Below the pieces are notes generated by a model, which had not been told where the DNA came from, searched no databases, and was given only the letters and a program-made list of their open reading frames with translations. A stretch of 64,000 nt of DNA from Gluconobacter aidae (GTDB lineage: Bacteria > Pseudomonadota > Alphaproteobacteria > Acetobacterales > Acetobacteraceae), in the NCBI RefSeq assembly GCF_009547075.1, contig NZ_WIPH01000002.1:1-64000 (forward strand). The letters are read 5' to 3'. A program made the position numbers and the translations under genes. This document shows, piece by piece, positions 9,862-15,593 of the stretch (its first letter is position 1; each line of letters opens with the position of its first letter).

Positions 9862-11994
9862 TTATCCTTCAGCCAGGCCGGCCTCGCCCAGTGCTTCAGC
9901 CAGCCTCGTCAGTCGTGTCTTCCCCGCGCAAGGAAACCGGCTGACAGCTCTGGAAATGGTCAGATCCGGCACCAGACGAAGAAGGTGGCGGCAGACCTGA
10001 TGCATCTCTTCGGCACAGTCACCCACTTCAATCAGGGCGATGAGATAATAAACCAGAGAACTCGGGCAGGACGGATAAAGCCCGGACATCAACCGGCCCA
10101 TTGAGATTACTTCCTGATAGTCTTCCCCCAGGAGCAGGACCATCATGAAAACCGGTCGCAGGAGTTCAAGCAACTGTGAGCGATACTTGTTTTCCAATAG
10201 CAGATTCACTTTTTCGGCTGCTGCTTTCATATCTCCTCCGAGCAGGGCCAGAACAGTCTTCGCCATCAAAAGGTCTGGAGAATCCTCGTGAGGCCCCTTG
10301 ATCCGGGAGATTCCCTCGACCGCGGATCGGGCAACCGAGAGAGCGGTATTGTGCATGACAGGCTGATGCATCAGATACGCTGCGAGGAGAACTTCGACCG
10401 CATGCAAATCCGGCATCAGAGAAACGGCGGCACGAACGCTGCGAAGGCCATGGGCAAAAATAGCGTCGGCTTCAGGACTCCAGTCATTTAAGAAACGAAT
10501 ATAGCAATGCAGGGCATCAATGAGGGCAATTGTGCCGTCGTCTCCGTCCAGATCGACGGCACGTTCCAGTAGAAATCCAATTCTCCCGAAAAGCGAAGAA
10601 TCATGCCGCAGGAGTAGTATGAAAGCCCGCAATGCCATTCCAAGTGCTGAAAGTTCTGCGTCGGGACGGGCTGCAATCCGGCGGGCTTCGGTGATGAAGA
10701 TGCTCCATTGCATCGCCTGCGCGGGGGCCAGAAGGCTGTTTTTTGCTGTATCCGGGCCTGAGGACGGGAAATCGTAATGTGTTCCCCAGATGATGGTACC
10801 CCCGCGCCGGGCGTCCAGCACGCGGAGGATCAGCCGGTTTTCAGTTCCCTCAGGATCTGTCCGCAGATTTCCGGAAATGATGTAATCCACGCCGCAGGAT
10901 CGATAGATCGCGGCCGCACTCACAGAGTGGGGCTGGGAAAATTCAGGACGTGCAAGAATATCGAAAGCGCCCATATTGACGAATATGAGTTCCAGTTGAT
11001 CCCGCAGATTCCGGCCCTGTTCGGCAGGCGTTTCATCCGTACAGAAGGGAGGCAGGAAAAGCAGCGAGATTTTCCGGGGCTCCGCTGCGTCCGGATGCTG
11101 TGCGGCGTAATGCAGTGGCATGGCCAGCATCGGATCCGGACGCGGCACAGTGGCCATGAAAGGGGCTTCAGCCCCCCCGGCGGCCAAGGGTACTGAAGAG
11201 AAATCCTTTACCAGGTCCCTGCTCGGGTTTTCAGTCGGAATGCTCTTGATCAGTGCCTGCGTTGACGGAGTAAGGGAGGGGGTCTCCGCGTCTCCGAAAA
11301 GATGGGTCATCTGGTCAGCCAGCGCGGCTGCCCTCCCCTTGTCGCCACGATGCAGGGCCATCTGCACCCTGGCCCGCCAGGCAATCTCGTTCAGTCCGTC
11401 AAATTTCAACAGACGTTCGGCCACGTCCTCGATCTGATCCGGGTCCGTCAGTTCCTGAACGGCATTTTCATAAACTCGCTGGAGATGTGCCGAAAGGCGT
11501 TCCCTCTGCTGGATCAGCCATTCGTCCAGCGCCGGATCCACGCCGGTCAGTTCCCCAAGGAGAGGTTCGTCAGGCAGGGCCACACTGTCGATCGTCCGGA
11601 CACTGACAGTGAGCAGCCTTTCCGCATCCACCGAGGTGAGGGCGGGCTTCAGGGCCAGTGAGTGTCGCTGAACGTCGATGACATCCACCCCCAGTGGACT
11701 CAGTGCGTCCAGAAGACGGTGGATTTCCTGCCGCAGGGACGCGCGCGCCATTTCCTCGGGGCGCTGGCTCCACAACAGTTCCGCCAGCCGGGATCGGAGA
11801 ACCGGCTTTCGGTCAGAAAGAGCAAGAATGGCCAGAAGTGCCCGTGTTTTACCTCCGACCGGGAGCACGCTTTCGCCCGTGAGGGTTCTCGCCTCCATCT
11901 GCCCGATCAGTCGCATGCGCAGAAGGGTGGGATCGGTCTCGCGGATATGACGGGATGAACTGTCGACTATCTTCGTCGCCTCCACAATCAGCAT
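9862..11994 (-). CDS. SARP/BTAD-type transcriptional regulator with C-terminal repeat domain
   Basis: Large (710 residues) predicted DNA-binding regulator. Residues about 27-110 form an OmpR-like winged helix of the SARP type (MRLIGQMEARTL... KTRALLAILALS... LAELLWSQRPEEMARASLRQ), followed by a bacterial transcriptional activation (BTAD) helical domain to about 245. Around 300-410 is a segment resembling the TolB/adenylyl-cyclase-associated domain (KISLLFLPPF, GVDYIISGNLR), and the remaining 300 residues are helical, TPR-like. No transmembrane segment or kinase motif is evident. It is monocistronic, with a 438-base upstream gap. AAGGA abuts the ATG at 11994, which is too close to be ideal, so an internal start (Met27) is possible. 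Target genes and signal are unknown. Confidence 0.8.
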   Translation of the reverse strand: MLIVEATKIVDSSSRHIRETDPTLLRMRLIGQMEARTLTGESVLPVGGKTRALLAILALSDRKPVLRSRLAELLWSQRPEEMARASLRQEIHRLLDALSPLGVDVIDVQRHSLALKPALTSVDAERLLTVSVRTIDSVALPDEPLLGELTGVDPALDEWLIQQRERLSAHLQRVYENAVQELTDPDQIEDVAERLLKFDGLNEIAWRARVQMALHRGDKGRAAALADQMTHLFGDAETPSLTPSTQALIKSIPTENPSRDLVKDFSSVPLAAGGAEAPFMATVPRPDPMLAMPLHYAAQHPDAAEPRKISLLFLPPFCTDETPAEQGRNLRDQLELIFVNMGAFDILARPEFSQPHSVSAAAIYRSCGVDYIISGNLRTDPEGTENRLILRVLDARRGGTIIWGTHYDFPSSGPDTAKNSLLAPAQAMQWSIFITEARRIAARPDAELSALGMALRAFILLLRHDSSLFGRIGFLLERAVDLDGDDGTIALIDALHCYIRFLNDWSPEADAIFAHGLRSVRAAVSLMPDLHAVEVLLAAYLMHQPVMHNTALSVARSAVEGISRIKGPHEDSPDLLMAKTVLALLGGDMKAAAEKVNLLLENKYRSQLLELLRPVFMMVLLLGEDYQEVISMGRLMSGLYPSCPSSLVYYLIALIEVGDCAEEMHQVCRHLLRLVPDLTISRAVSRFPCAGKTRLTRLAEALGEAGLAEG

Positions 11995-12433
11995 TCCTTG
12001 CCGAAAAGCACGGAGACTCCAGACTTTTTCAGTAAATCGTTGTCAGCAACGCAGAGCATGGCAATTCTCAACCCAGTCAAACCTGCAAACCCCACAGAGG
12101 GGTATTGTGTAGGATGCCAGCTGCGAACGCGCTCTATCCTACTCAGGATTTGGTACTACCAGAAAAACAGATCACCTTTTTGATGGAAAAAAGATGTCGC
12201 GCAAGGCCGTAGCAGGAGCCTCGCTTATAAAGGCTAACCAGAAAAAGTTTAAATAGCATAAACGGGATATGTGATCTTCATCATCTAAGGATATGTCCTG
12301 TCGAGGGAGGCGATTTTTCTCGCTTCCTTCTGGCGCACGCTGGTTTGGAGGGAGAATTCCTGACATTTTTCATACTCGATGAAAACCGATGCGGTTGCAG
12401 CGATCATATAACTGCGATAGAATGAACTTGTTT
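11995..12433. other. Intergenic region between SARP-type regulator and tRNA-Arg
   Basis: Unusually A/T-rich for this window. It should hold the promoter of the minus-strand regulator (not pinpointed) and holds the tRNA promoter at its right end. A 64-codon minus-strand open frame at 12172-12366 has no ribosome site or recognisable content and is not annotated. Confidence 0.6.
12395..12423 (+). promoter_or_regulatory. Promoter of tRNA-Arg(CCU)
   Basis: TTGCAG (12395-12400) and TAGAAT (12418-12423) are separated by 17 bases, and the tRNA 5' end at 12434 lies 10 bases downstream, as expected for a sigma70-type promoter that starts transcription at or just before the tRNA. Confidence 0.65.
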
Positions 12434-12738
12434 GTCCGCGTAGCTCAGCAGGATAGAGCACAGGATTCCTAAGGTTTGAATTGGGCGCCATGATGGGAAA
12501 CCGCATGGTGGATTCGCTCAAATTCGGGGAACGCTCTGATCGTCTTGATCGTGCCAATCCCGAGCCAAGCTTTCCGGCTTGCCGGCGAGAAGGTGTAGAG
12601 ACTGTACGGGTGACACCTTGGCTTTCTGGCCATGGTGAAGAGACAGTCCAGACCACGAACATGCTTTTGGGCATGGCGGTGAAAACCGAAGTGGTAAGAA
12701 TCCTGGGGTCGGAGGTTCGAATCCTCTCGCGGACACCA
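12434..12738 (+). tRNA. tRNA-Arg (anticodon CCU), interrupted by a group I intron
   Basis: Two exons, 12434-12470 and 12699-12738, assemble a complete 77-nt tRNA. Acceptor strands GTCCGCG and CGCGGAC pair perfectly; the D arm is GCTC/GAGC; the anticodon arm is CAGGA-TTCCTAA-TCCTG, formed only after removal of 12471-12698; the T arm is GGAGG-TTCGAAT-CCTCT; discriminator A and CCA (12736-12738) are encoded. Anticodon CCT occupies 12468-12470, so the interruption lies between positions 36 and 37. It reads AGG codons. A plain pseudogene is unlikely because every stem is intact and the insert has a group I core. Confidence 0.93.
12471..12698 (+). ncRNA. Group I self-splicing intron (IC3-like) in tRNA-Arg(CCU)
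   Basis: 228 nt without a credible reading frame. The 5' exon ends in U (12470) and the intron ends in G (12698), the two bases group I splicing requires. Proposed helices: P1, guide GGGAA 12495-12499 with exon TTCCT 12466-12470, giving the obligatory U-G wobble at the splice site; P4, 12523-12529 with 12558-12564; P7, GACTGT 12600-12605 with ACAGTC 12643-12648; P8, CACCTTGGC 12614-12622 with GCCATGGTG 12629-12637 (one mismatch); P9, ACCAC 12652-12656 with GTGGT 12691-12695 enclosing hairpins CATGC/GCATG and CGGT-GAAA-ACCG. The core strings AGAGACTGTACGGG and AAGAGACAGTCC match the conserved R and S elements of tRNA group I introns. Such introns are known in tRNA-Arg(CCU) of some alphaproteobacteria. 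Confidence 0.9.
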
Positions 12739-13088
12739 CACAGACAAGCTGCCGTACAGGGATGACGTTGCTCGCTGACCAGTACGGGAATTGAGCGTGC
12801 CCTCTCTGGTGTGAATTCCGCCAATTGCCCGAAAATTGCGATCCTCAACGAAAGGAAGACGCTCGAAATTACGTCTCCAGGCACGATTTCTAATGGGGAT
12901 ACAACTTACAGGGCACTAAGCGGAAATGCGTATGCTGGTCTGTGGATAATCTGAACAGTGACAGGTGCAGTTCTTCAGAGATTCACGGAGACGGACCCGT
13001 ATTCTGTGATGCCGACAGGCGTCCGGGGTGCATTTGCCCGGACGCCTTGCTCAACTGTCATGCGGCGCTTCTCCGATGTAGCCGGCGC
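12739..13088. other. Intergenic region between tRNA-Arg and TonB receptor
   Basis: 350 bases in which I see no gene, no second tRNA and no T-rich terminator directly after the tRNA. The only clear structure is the hairpin at 13018-13046 near the end of the receptor gene. Confidence 0.6.
13018..13046 (-). terminator. Hairpin downstream of the TonB receptor gene
   Basis: GGCGTCCGGG (13018-13027) and CCCGGACGCC (13037-13046) form a perfect 10-bp stem 43 bases past the receptor stop. There is no run of T on either side, so termination would be weak or factor-assisted; mRNA 3'-end stabilisation is the alternative. Confidence 0.45.
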
Positions 13089-15593
13089 TTAGAAGCGCGC
13101 TGAAACATCCAGATAATAATACCCGCCATTCATGCCGAGCTGGGATGTGCTCATGTAATATTTGGGCACGCCCAGATAGCGGTTTCCTTCCGGCACGACG
13201 GACGGGAACTTGGCGAAGATGTTGTTCCCGCCGATCGTGGCGCTCCATTTGGGCGTAATGTTGTAGGTAACGGAGGCGTTCGTCGTCCATTTCGGCACAT
13301 TCTGGAACTCCAGGAAGTGGCTCGTGGAGTAGGTATAAGGCCCGGTGTAGTAGGTGAGCTGGGACGTTGTCTCGCCATAACGGATCTCATGGACGGAGAC
13401 GGCCCACTTGTTGCGGGCAGAGCGCCAGGTCCCACCGAAGATAATCTTGCTGCGGGGATATGCCGTAGTGAGATAGGCGATGTACTGGGCGTTCAGAAGG
13501 GCCGCTCCCGTCGTACTGGCCGCCTGATGGCGCAGACGTGTACGGTTCAGGTTGATCGCCACATCCCAGTCCGCATGACCATAACGACCGAAATCGGTTG
13601 GATAGGTCGCCGTCAGATCGAGGCCCTGAGTGCGGGTATTGGCGACATTGGCGAACCAGTGCGTGGCAAGCTGGCTTCCAGCCCAGTTTTCGGACCCTGC
13701 AGGCAGGTTGAAACCATCAGCCTGGAGCGCGCTGTACGCCTGCGATCCGTAGATCGTACCCCCTGGCATGATCCGGTCGCGCAGGTCGATCTGATATACG
13801 TCGACGGTGACGTGGAGCTTCTTGATCGGCTCGACGATGATGCCACCTTCCGCACTCGTGGAAGATTCCGGCTTCAGGGTCGAGGCGCCATTGGCGAGTG
13901 CGCCGGCGGAGTTCGCCGCAATGATGCCGCTGGCCGCGGTCGGAGAGACGGAGAGTGCGGAATAATGCTCCTGCGCCAGCGTCGGCGCATGGAAGCCATT
14001 GCTGAACGTGCCGCGGATGGCAAAGCGCGGGCTGAAATCGTAGCGGGTCGAGATCTTGCCGGTCTTGGTGTTGCCGACATCCGTGTAGTGCTCGACGCGG
14101 CCTGCCAGATCGATCTGCCAGTGCTTCATCAGGTTCGTGGAGATGTCGAGATAGCCCGCCGCAACGTCACGGGACCATTTGCCTGCATTGGCCGGGTTGG
14201 TGCCAGGAAAGCCATCCGAACTGGAATAGGTGTAGCTCGCCGGAGACCCGGTGCCGATGGCATAGGCCTCGTACCGATAGGACGCTCCCCCTGCGACGTT
14301 GATGGCATAGGGCCAGAAGGACGTGCGGAACTTGCGGCTCAGGTCGACGCTGTTCGTCCACTGAGTGTCGTTATAGGACTGTGCGGCGAAGGACGTCGGT
14401 GTTTGCCCCGTGGCCGTGTACAGACCCACATTCGTTGAGCTCTCGGTATCGAAGGCGTCGTAATCCCGCCCGAAAACCGAGGATACATCCCAGTGCCAGC
14501 CTGCCAGGGTCCCCTTGAAGCCGGCCGTCAGTTCGTAGTCGTCCTCGTTCAGGGCCTCAATGGGGGCGTAGCCGTATGGATAGATCGCGGCATAGCCGGG
14601 ATATTTGGCGAGCGTGGAGGCCAGTCGGTAGTTCTGATACGATTCCGCATGCCGGTGCGCATAGGTCGCGCTGGCATAGGCCTGCACATTATCGGTGATG
14701 TCGTAGCCGGCATTGATGGCGACGCTCTCACGGGTCTGTTCGGGCTGTCCGAGAAGCTGATTGACATAGGTGTTGGTCCGGTTGTCCGCCCCGGACCGGA
14801 CCGTATGGTCCTGATGCACGAAATCGCCGCCGATATGAACGAAGCCGCGATTGTTCAGATTCAGGCCACCATCAATGAACACGCCCTGCTGGAAACCATC
14901 GCCTTCGCTCGTGATTCCCGTGTTCGAGCGCATGGTCAGACCATGATTCTGCTTCTTCAGGATGATGTTGACGACGCCTGCAATGGCGTCCGAACCGTAC
15001 TGGGCGGATGCACCGTCCCGCAGGACCTCGATATGGTCGATCATGGACATGGGGATCATGTCGATATCGACAGGCGTGGACCCCTGCGCGGGACCTCCAT
15101 CCGCATAGATATTCGCTGTGGTATGGCGCCGCTTGCCGTCCACCAGAACGAGGGTCTCGTTGGGGTTGAGTCCGCGGAGCGAAATGGTGTCGGTCAGGGC
15201 GCCCGCATCAAAACCGCCTGTGGGAACGGTGAGGGACGGCAGCAACAGCGCCAGAGAGTCGCGGAGCGTGGGCTGGCCCGTGCCTGTCAACTGGCGATTC
15301 GTCACGATGTCGACAGGAGCAATCGAATCCCGCGCTTTCTTTCCGAACTCACGCGTTCCCGTCACAACGATCGCTTCACTACCCCCCGACACTTCCGACG
15401 GCGGTTTCGGAGCGGGGCGGGAGCCGACCTTCCGGGACGCGGGGGTTGCATGGGCCTGTTTGTGCTGAACCGGAACGGATTGCGTTGTCGCAGCCCGGCT
15501 TCCGTCCATCATCAGGACAAAGGCAGAGCCAAGAAGGGAAGTCCCCAGAAGGGTCACATGACGAAGGGAAAGCTGGGTCAGCACTTTTACCAC
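13089..15593 (-). CDS. TonB-dependent outer-membrane receptor
   Basis: Outer-membrane gated channel importing a substrate with energy from TonB-ExbBD. The 834-residue protein has an N-terminal signal peptide (hydrophobic core TLLGTSLLGSAFVLMM), a TonB-box-like EAIVVTGTRE near residue 73, a plug domain with the SLRGLNPNETLVLVDGKRR pattern, and a beta-barrel ending in the canonical aromatic LDVSARF. The start is GTG at 15593; ribosome-site support is weak and a further GTG lies three codons downstream. Substrate is not evident: no siderophore biosynthesis gene is near. An 8-bp inverted repeat 19-44 bases upstream of the start is a likely operator. Divergent from the royal-jelly-type gene. Confidence 0.92.
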   Translation of the reverse strand: MVKVLTQLSLRHVTLLGTSLLGSAFVLMMDGSRAATTQSVPVQHKQAHATPASRKVGSRPAPKPPSEVSGGSEAIVVTGTREFGKKARDSIAPVDIVTNRQLTGTGQPTLRDSLALLLPSLTVPTGGFDAGALTDTISLRGLNPNETLVLVDGKRRHTTANIYADGGPAQGSTPVDIDMIPMSMIDHIEVLRDGASAQYGSDAIAGVVNIILKKQNHGLTMRSNTGITSEGDGFQQGVFIDGGLNLNNRGFVHIGGDFVHQDHTVRSGADNRTNTYVNQLLGQPEQTRESVAINAGYDITDNVQAYASATYAHRHAESYQNYRLASTLAKYPGYAAIYPYGYAPIEALNEDDYELTAGFKGTLAGWHWDVSSVFGRDYDAFDTESSTNVGLYTATGQTPTSFAAQSYNDTQWTNSVDLSRKFRTSFWPYAINVAGGASYRYEAYAIGTGSPASYTYSSSDGFPGTNPANAGKWSRDVAAGYLDISTNLMKHWQIDLAGRVEHYTDVGNTKTGKISTRYDFSPRFAIRGTFSNGFHAPTLAQEHYSALSVSPTAASGIIAANSAGALANGASTLKPESSTSAEGGIIVEPIKKLHVTVDVYQIDLRDRIMPGGTIYGSQAYSALQADGFNLPAGSENWAGSQLATHWFANVANTRTQGLDLTATYPTDFGRYGHADWDVAINLNRTRLRHQAASTTGAALLNAQYIAYLTTAYPRSKIIFGGTWRSARNKWAVSVHEIRYGETTSQLTYYTGPYTYSTSHFLEFQNVPKWTTNASVTYNITPKWSATIGGNNIFAKFPSVVPEGNRYLGVPKYYMSTSQLGMNGGYYYLDVSARF

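Follow-up and report, generated by a model that had tools for sequence, protein, structure and literature searches.

A group I intron in the anticodon loop of tRNA-Arg(CCU) of Gluconobacter aidae and its homologs in other bacterial tRNA genes

The tRNA-Arg(CCU) gene of Gluconobacter aidae (NZ_WIPH01000002.1) is interrupted in its anticodon loop by a group I intron. We consider it very likely, with a probability of about 0.96, that this gene is split after anticodon base 36 by a small, endonuclease-free group I intron which splices to give a tRNA that reads AGG. Homologous introns occupy many tRNA hosts, mostly with guides that match them. The locus lies in the window, the whole stretch of 64,000 nucleotides that was analysed, which is part of contig 40 of a draft genome of 3.0 Mb in 127 contigs and has a G+C content of 59.4%.

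Results

A tRNA gene in two halves

When the two exons (Table 1) are joined, ARAGORN calls a perfect tRNA-Arg(cct) of 77 bases, just as the first-pass annotation of this DNA had claimed for the gene without its insert. It had also warned that tRNA finders may miss such a gene and that reverse-strand frames cross it, and both remarks hold: at default settings ARAGORN reported zero tRNAs in the window, with introns allowed it named tRNA-Arg(cct) at 12434 to 12738 with an intron of 228, and open frames on the reverse strand span the locus (e.g. 12469-12747 and 12285-12884). The single listed forward frame over the intron (12481-12765, 94 aa) continues through the 3' exon and looks spurious. No endonuclease is encoded in the 228-nt intron, which is too short for a homing-endonuclease gene. 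Most columns of the 5' exon are invariant among 30 aligned loci.

Table 1. Coordinates of the split tRNA gene, its intron helices and its neighbours in the window
Feature	Position	Strand	Description
ORF	9862-11994	reverse	long; neighbour of the split tRNA gene
5' exon of tRNA-Arg(CCU)	12434-12470	+	tRNA positions 1-36; 37 nt; ends ...GATTCCT, last base U36
Group I intron	12471-12698	+	228 nt; between tRNA positions 36 and 37; last base G
Internal guide GGG (P1)	12483-12485	+	pairs with anticodon CCU at 12468-12470: U36.G, C35-G, C34-G
P2	12487-12492 with 12504-12509	+	GAAA loop caps it at 12497-12500
P3	12514-12519 with 12608-12613	+	double changes at 5/6 pairs; 98.9% of cells paired
P4	12524-12529 with 12558-12563	+	99.4% of cells paired; mostly invariant
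P5	12533-12534 with 12553-12554	+	100% of cells paired; mostly invariant
P6	12564-12566 with 12592-12594	+	100% of cells paired; mostly invariant
P7	12600-12605 with 12643-12648	+	pseudoknotted with P3; 12600-12604 with 12644-12648 conserved
P8	12614-12617 with 12634-12637	+	four pairs in 30/30 introns, three with double changes
P9	12652-12656 with 12691-12695	+	94.7% of cells paired
P9a	12660-12664 with 12671-12675	+	90.4% of cells paired
P9b	12677-12680 with 12685-12688	+	100% of cells paired
omega-G	12698	+	last intron column G in 30/30 (ends set by tRNA exons)
3' exon of tRNA-Arg(CCU)	12699-12738	+	40 nt; position 37 to the encoded CCA
ORF	13089-15593	reverse	neighbour; putative TonB-dependent receptor, as its sequence reads

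The insert has a group I fold

The Rfam covariance search that had been proposed as a check, run on 3 kb with RF00028, matched 12466-12671 with 47.3 bits (E 3.1e-10) over the full 253 positions of the model, just under the gathering score of 50; genome-wide, the window intron is the only match. The fold was then examined in an alignment of 30 introns from several host tRNAs, the window's included, with ends set by the tRNA exons. A structure of 52 pairs including the P7 pseudoknot has 88.6% of its cells paired in this alignment, against 27.9-40.2% in slid versions. Changes on both sides occur at 31 of the 52 pairs (shuffled mean 18.4; 0 of 500 shuffles as high), and no shuffle of 500 equals the real alignment on any of five measures. 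Covariation is found in P3, the P7 pseudoknot, P8, P9a and P9b; in this mixed-host alignment P2 has double changes at all six pairs, yet only 72.2% of its cells are paired, and it is not uniform across hosts.

The window intron thus contains the group I core of P3-P4-P5-P6-P7-P8 with the P3/P7 pseudoknot. P4, P8 and P9, all named in the first-pass annotation, are largely or fully paired across the 30 introns, P8 as four pairs proper (with its extension 75.2% of cells are paired, and the extension beyond four pairs is not general). The six-pair P7 described there needs trimming: the helix is real and five pairs are conserved, with double changes at two of them (U-A/C-G and G-C/A-U/U-A), but the sixth pair is made in only 4 of the 30 introns. 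At the splice sites a U precedes the intron and a G ends it, U36 and G12698 both being as claimed, and the guide pairs with the 5' exon through a U.G. A covariance model built from the 30 introns, R2, scores the window intron at 205.9 bits, its own sequence being inside the model alignment.

That the insert is something other than group I, either a protein-spliced intron or a chance insertion, might be argued from the sub-threshold Rfam score and the silence of ARAGORN at default settings, but the full-model match at E 3e-10, a pseudoknotted P7 with compensatory changes and guides that match exons across hosts make this hardly credible. The RF00028 match, the covariation and the rejoining exons all agree with the original reading of the insert as an anticodon-loop group I intron of tRNA-Arg(CCU).

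A three-base guide pairs with the anticodon

The first-pass annotation had taken GGGAA (12495-12499) for a guide pairing with exon TTCCT. We reject this candidate, which is part of P2 at its end with the GAAA cap: GGAAA is also present at this place in introns from Leu, Thr and Lys tRNAs, and two same-genus relatives have TTGGAAAC there while keeping GGG at the guide. The guide is instead the GGG of Table 1. The column of G12483, which faces the U of the splice site, has a G in 127 of 131 introns, and the bases that follow track the host tRNA (Table 2). Since the guide column starts at G12483 and tracks the host exon, P1 has three pairs in the window intron. Using the first three guide bases, at least three guide-exon pairs form in 125 of 130 introns, compared with a mean of 72.2 and a maximum of 83 when exons were dealt at random among introns in 1000 trials (131 introns were aligned, one of them gapped there; 11 hand-set loci used the typical exon of their host). 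Of the five introns that fall short, one lies in Lys(CUU), two in Leu(CAA), one in a CAU tRNA and one in Asn(GUU). A putative P10 between A37, A38 and U39 and 12480-12482 is possible.

From this arrangement a standard route can be proposed for the transcript. The pre-tRNA would fold so that the guide GGG pairs with the anticodon CCU in three pairs, with the U.G at the splice site; a guanosine cofactor would attack after U36, and the freed U36 would attack after the last G of the intron, joining the exons into the 77-nt tRNA, which would read AGG. We infer transcription, splicing, charging and decoding of this tRNA from the DNA sequence.

The tRNA complement of the genome

RF00005 found 43 tRNAs in the genome, the split gene not among them. 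ARAGORN, run on all 43, identified no second CCU tRNA in the 3.0 Mb draft; the Arg anticodons were tct, ccg and acg (twice), with no cct. A query with the joined exons gave seven matches in its own genome, the best two of the seven being the halves of the split locus. An uninterrupted tRNA-Arg(CCU) elsewhere, which would have spoken against the first-pass interpretation, was therefore not found among the 43 tRNAs of the draft. These 43 also include neither tRNA-Ala(UGC) nor tRNA-Ile(GAU), which may reflect rRNA operons that are absent from the assembly or collapsed in it; since these two are lacking from the 127 contigs, the draft seems to be short of some tRNA genes, and another CCU copy is conceivable.

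The further claim that this is the only tRNA reading AGG stands in part: it is the only CCU tRNA found in the draft, but tRNA-Arg(tct) is present. A tRNA-Arg(UCU) can also read AGG by ordinary wobble rules, and AGG reading may therefore not depend on splicing alone. This leads to an alternative in which the intron is degenerate and no longer splices, the tRNA gene is dispensable and AGG is read by tRNA-Arg(UCU). Besides the presence of the tct gene itself, AGG accounts for few codons (72 of 17,296 in 34 long window ORFs, not all of which are necessarily genes), and a crude scan of 12200-12950 found no sigma-70-like promoter. Every core helix of the intron is intact, however, the exons form a perfect tRNA, and the core is conserved among relatives of the same genus and family, so that we regard a degenerate intron as very unlikely and favor one that splices.

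Distribution of the Arg(CCU) intron in the family

By hand count, 58 of 150 family genomes, including that of G. aidae, have a tRNA-Arg(CCU) intron at the same site. The number equals the 71 genomes with R2 matches minus 13 with introns solely in other tRNAs; 56 match nearly the full query, one (G093) matches in two pieces and one (G048) from query position 46 with a separate exon half. A contiguous, junction-spanning match of at least 87% to the spliced tRNA was counted, also by hand, in 44 of the 150 genomes among the matches listed, the match across the junction, rather than a reading of each anticodon, being the criterion. No genome belongs to both groups. The remaining 48 have matches that are weaker or not among the matches listed. 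At least three genera (g50, g64 and g76) contain one intron-bearing and one contiguous genome each. Such a sporadic distribution is the pattern named in the title of Paquin et al. 1999.

Related introns in other tRNAs

In partly overlapping samples, and counting a few weak matches, R2 matched 71 of 150 family, 51 of 385 class and 44 of 398 phylum genomes; in the G. aidae genome it matched the window intron only. We read the host tRNA from the exons at 139 loci, 87 and 39 from the R2 searches and 13 found earlier; the best-scoring were taken first, which makes this a non-random sample. Labels could be given to 131 of the 139 (Table 2). Two others (L173, L178) are cut by contig ends, each after a Thr(GGU) 5' half, and L174, L177, L179, L180, L181 and L221 are likewise unlabelled. 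The host rules gave L122 a wrong label and put the 5' splice site of L182 and L183 in the wrong place; eleven loci, L122 among them, were assigned by hand. The insertion sites of the homologous introns are mostly after U33, U34, U35 or U36. Many of the labels that the intron mode of ARAGORN gave to 20 relatives (L078-L097; Phe, Ser, Ile, SeC and others) were discarded once the exons had been read; 11 of these 20 are tRNA-Leu(UAA).

Table 2. Host tRNAs, insertion points and guides of the labelled introns
Host tRNA	Insertion point	Introns	Guide	Remarks
Leu(UAA)	after U34	49	GAGU or GAGC (49/49)	one on a plasmid (L032)
Arg(CCU)	after U36	38	GGGC (37) or GGGT (1) (38/38)	plus one with a different body
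Thr(GGU)	after U36	10	GCCU or GCCA (10/10)	L086, L087, L088, L090, L096, L121, L125, L158, L162, L169
Lys(UUU)	after U35	6		Lys(UUU) and Lys(CUU) loci: L079, L122, L123, L127, L156, L157, L163, L165, L166, L167, L168, L172, L175
Lys(UUU)	after U34	3		
Lys(CUU)	after U35	4		
Leu(CAA)	after U33	4		
Leu(CAA)	after C34	3		
CAU tRNAs	after U33	3		
CAU tRNAs	after U36	2		
Thr(CGU)	after U36	2	GCGU (2/2)	
Arg(UCU)	after U34	2		
Arg(UCU)	after U36	1		
Leu(UAG)-like gene		2		
Asn(GUU)		1		

The exact Thr(GGU)-junction pattern occurs in 36 stretches among 84,980 species, and all 36 have an R2 match over the whole model. The species include Crenalkalicoccus roseus, Roseicella frigidaeris, Roseomonas acroporae, Paracraurococcus ruber, three Acuticoccus species, Pseudaestuariivita rosea and Alkalilacustris brevis. 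In none of the ten genomes where a Thr(GGU) intron was labelled did we find a complete uninterrupted Thr(GGU) gene. An uninterrupted Thr(GGU) query gave 23 matches in these genomes, of which 15 are halves beside introns and six are other tRNAs (three Val, and one each of Ile, Gly and Ala). The last two (L261 and L263) are both in one Roseicella genome (G024), on contigs 10 and 23: a 5' piece of an intronless Thr(GGU) just upstream of the intron-bearing gene, and a 3' piece with an intronless anticodon loop on the other contig. The two pieces share anticodon-loop bases, and ARAGORN found no complete tRNA at either. They look like the two ends of an intronless Thr(GGU) copy split by another insertion, perhaps an element that integrated into the anticodon loop. 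For Lys(UUU), a query in one genome (G079) gave five matches, namely the two halves and tRNA-Asn, tRNA-Lys(CUU) and tRNA-Phe.

Several loci depart from the common pattern. In three tRNA-Leu(CAA)-like hosts from non-alphaproteobacterial Proteobacteria (L200, L210, L214) the base before the intron is C rather than U, which gives a C-G pair at the splice site. The Leu(UAG)-like hosts (L091 and L095, from two genomes of genus g25) have a joined anticodon loop without the normal seven-base form with U33. One genome (G076) has related introns in both its Arg(UCU) and its Arg(CCU) tRNAs (L089, L148).

Plasmids also carry such introns. On pCTX-M3 (L032, 3982-4194) a group I intron lies in a tRNA-Leu(UAA) gene, the tRNA having been read at this plasmid locus only, and in all five plasmid loci examined (L032, L033, L034, L259, L260) resistance genes of the aac(3)-II type lie near the intron, at a distance of about 0.7 to 2.2 kb. 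Part of the window tRNA-intron query is matched by 1262 of 72,556 plasmid records; beneath 19 of the 20 listed plasmid matches no gene is listed, in a gene table that contains no RNA genes. In the tree of intron cores, L032 clusters with Leu(UAA) introns of Alphaproteobacteria (94/85), a grouping that may hint at the origin of the plasmid segment.

Phylogeny of the intron cores

A first tree was made from 131 intron cores cut at the first GAAA-like motif, which excludes the guide from nearly all rows (it remains in at least one, L148). On a single branch (100/100) lie 36 of the 38 Arg(CCU) introns, and the window intron, beside its two same-genus relatives, shares both this branch and the insertion point with them, pointing to common ancestry. 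The branch also contains two long-branch CAU introns that are probably misplaced; the two Arg(CCU) introns outside it (L155, L124) may be misplaced as well, since they were flagged for odd composition. The host-site labels need at least 25 changes on this tree, the minimum possible being 15. Among the well-supported groupings that mix hosts, one joins Lys(UUU) introns from both insertion sites to two Lys(CUU) introns (97/94), another unites Thr(GGU) and Leu(UAA) introns (96/80), and a third places Leu(CAA) introns inside Leu(UAA) ones (100/83).

In a second tree, from which nine rows with long or doubtful branches were removed to leave 122, the labels need at least 18 changes (minimum possible 12); the Arg(CCU) introns need four changes, three of them forced by well-supported branches. 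Bootstraps are not fully settled in either tree. Single clades of all Thr(GGU) (p-AU 0.23) or of all Arg(CCU) introns (p-AU 0.43) are not rejected, although the trees split them, and we have dropped the claim of repeated independent entry into the same tRNA.

Discussion

The kind of intron found in tRNA-Arg(CCU) is already known; its relatives across several other tRNAs are more unusual. That guide and exon match in 125 of 130 introns suggests that the introns moved from one tRNA to another through retargeting of the three-base guide. We lean toward the reading, with more confidence than doubt, that one endonuclease-free intron family has spread ectopically among proteobacterial tRNA anticodon loops, entering after U33-36 by guide change; its hosts would be Arg(CCU), Arg(UCU), Leu(UAA), Leu(CAA), Thr(GGU), Thr(CGU), Lys(UUU) at two sites, Lys(CUU) and CAU-reading tRNAs. 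At each new host a guide of three or four bases would be altered, and the simplest route would run from reverse splicing into the tRNA through reverse transcription to recombination. According to a passage of a 2014 review (PMC3984707), reverse splicing has been proposed as a means by which group I introns spread ectopically, but direct evidence is lacking and rDNA introns make the best case. Horizontal transfer of whole tRNA loci may alternatively account for the mixture of hosts.

If ectopic spread is the right reading, true group I introns would gain Thr(GGU), Thr(CGU), Lys and Arg(UCU) as new hosts in bacteria, and the reading of ACC would depend on a ribozyme in the Thr(GGU)-intron genomes, in all ten of which no complete uninterrupted copy was found. 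Among the papers listed in searches of the open-licence literature, we recognised no report of group I introns in bacterial Thr or Lys tRNAs besides PMC5733544, and none in which the true group I type was described for Thr(GGU), Thr(CGU), Lys or Arg(UCU) of bacteria. The intron family constitutes a natural series in which a single ribozyme sits in many tRNAs, most of them with a matching guide, and would allow ectopic spread by reverse splicing to be tested in bacteria.

The window locus is one more tRNA gene missed by default tools, and explains the apparent lack of tRNA-Arg(CCU) in such genomes. tRNA inventories easily miss genes of this type: at its gathering score RF00028 matches only two of eight stretches with related introns, and the window intron falls below it. 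tRNAscan-SE 2.0, as a passage of its description states, was not designed for finding such introns (PMC8450103). The tRNA gene of the self-splicing tRNA-Arg(CCU) group I intron BbgpI of Bartonella bacilliformis was likewise unannotated, and tRNAscan-SE detects it only after removal of the intron (PMC7717549).

BbgpI bears out the first-pass statement that such introns are known in alphaproteobacterial tRNA-Arg(CCU). Likened by description rather than by sequence, it and the window intron share host tRNA and intron class, in different bacterial families. Further tRNA-Arg(CCU) introns, in Agrobacterium and others, go back to Reinhold-Hurek and Shub 1992 and Paquin et al. 1999, as cited in PMC7717549. 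Closer to G. aidae, a Table 1 footnote (PMC4596401) records a tRNA(Arg) of Asaia bogorensis interrupted by an insert with homology to a group I intron; going by that description, the two acetic acid bacteria have the same kind of insert in a tRNA for the same amino acid.

Beyond tRNA-Arg, there are two points of comparison. The Azoarcus intron is of the same size class as the window's, with a GAAA-capped P2 and a three-base guide next to P2, and a tRNA-Leu(UAA) intron is also present in a gammaproteobacterium. The host of the Azoarcus intron, named in a passage of PMC3984707 as tRNA-Ile, differs from that of the window intron. A passage of another 2014 review (PMC4033280) lists tRNAs with group I introns for cyanobacteria and for alpha- and betaproteobacteria, and places tRNA-Leu(UAA) group I introns in cyanobacteria and plastids. 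Like the window intron, the tRNA-Leu(UAA) introns are group I introns of an anticodon loop, inserted in their case after U34 and guided by GAGU or GAGC, and those of alphaproteobacteria match the same covariance model, R2, as the intron of G. aidae.
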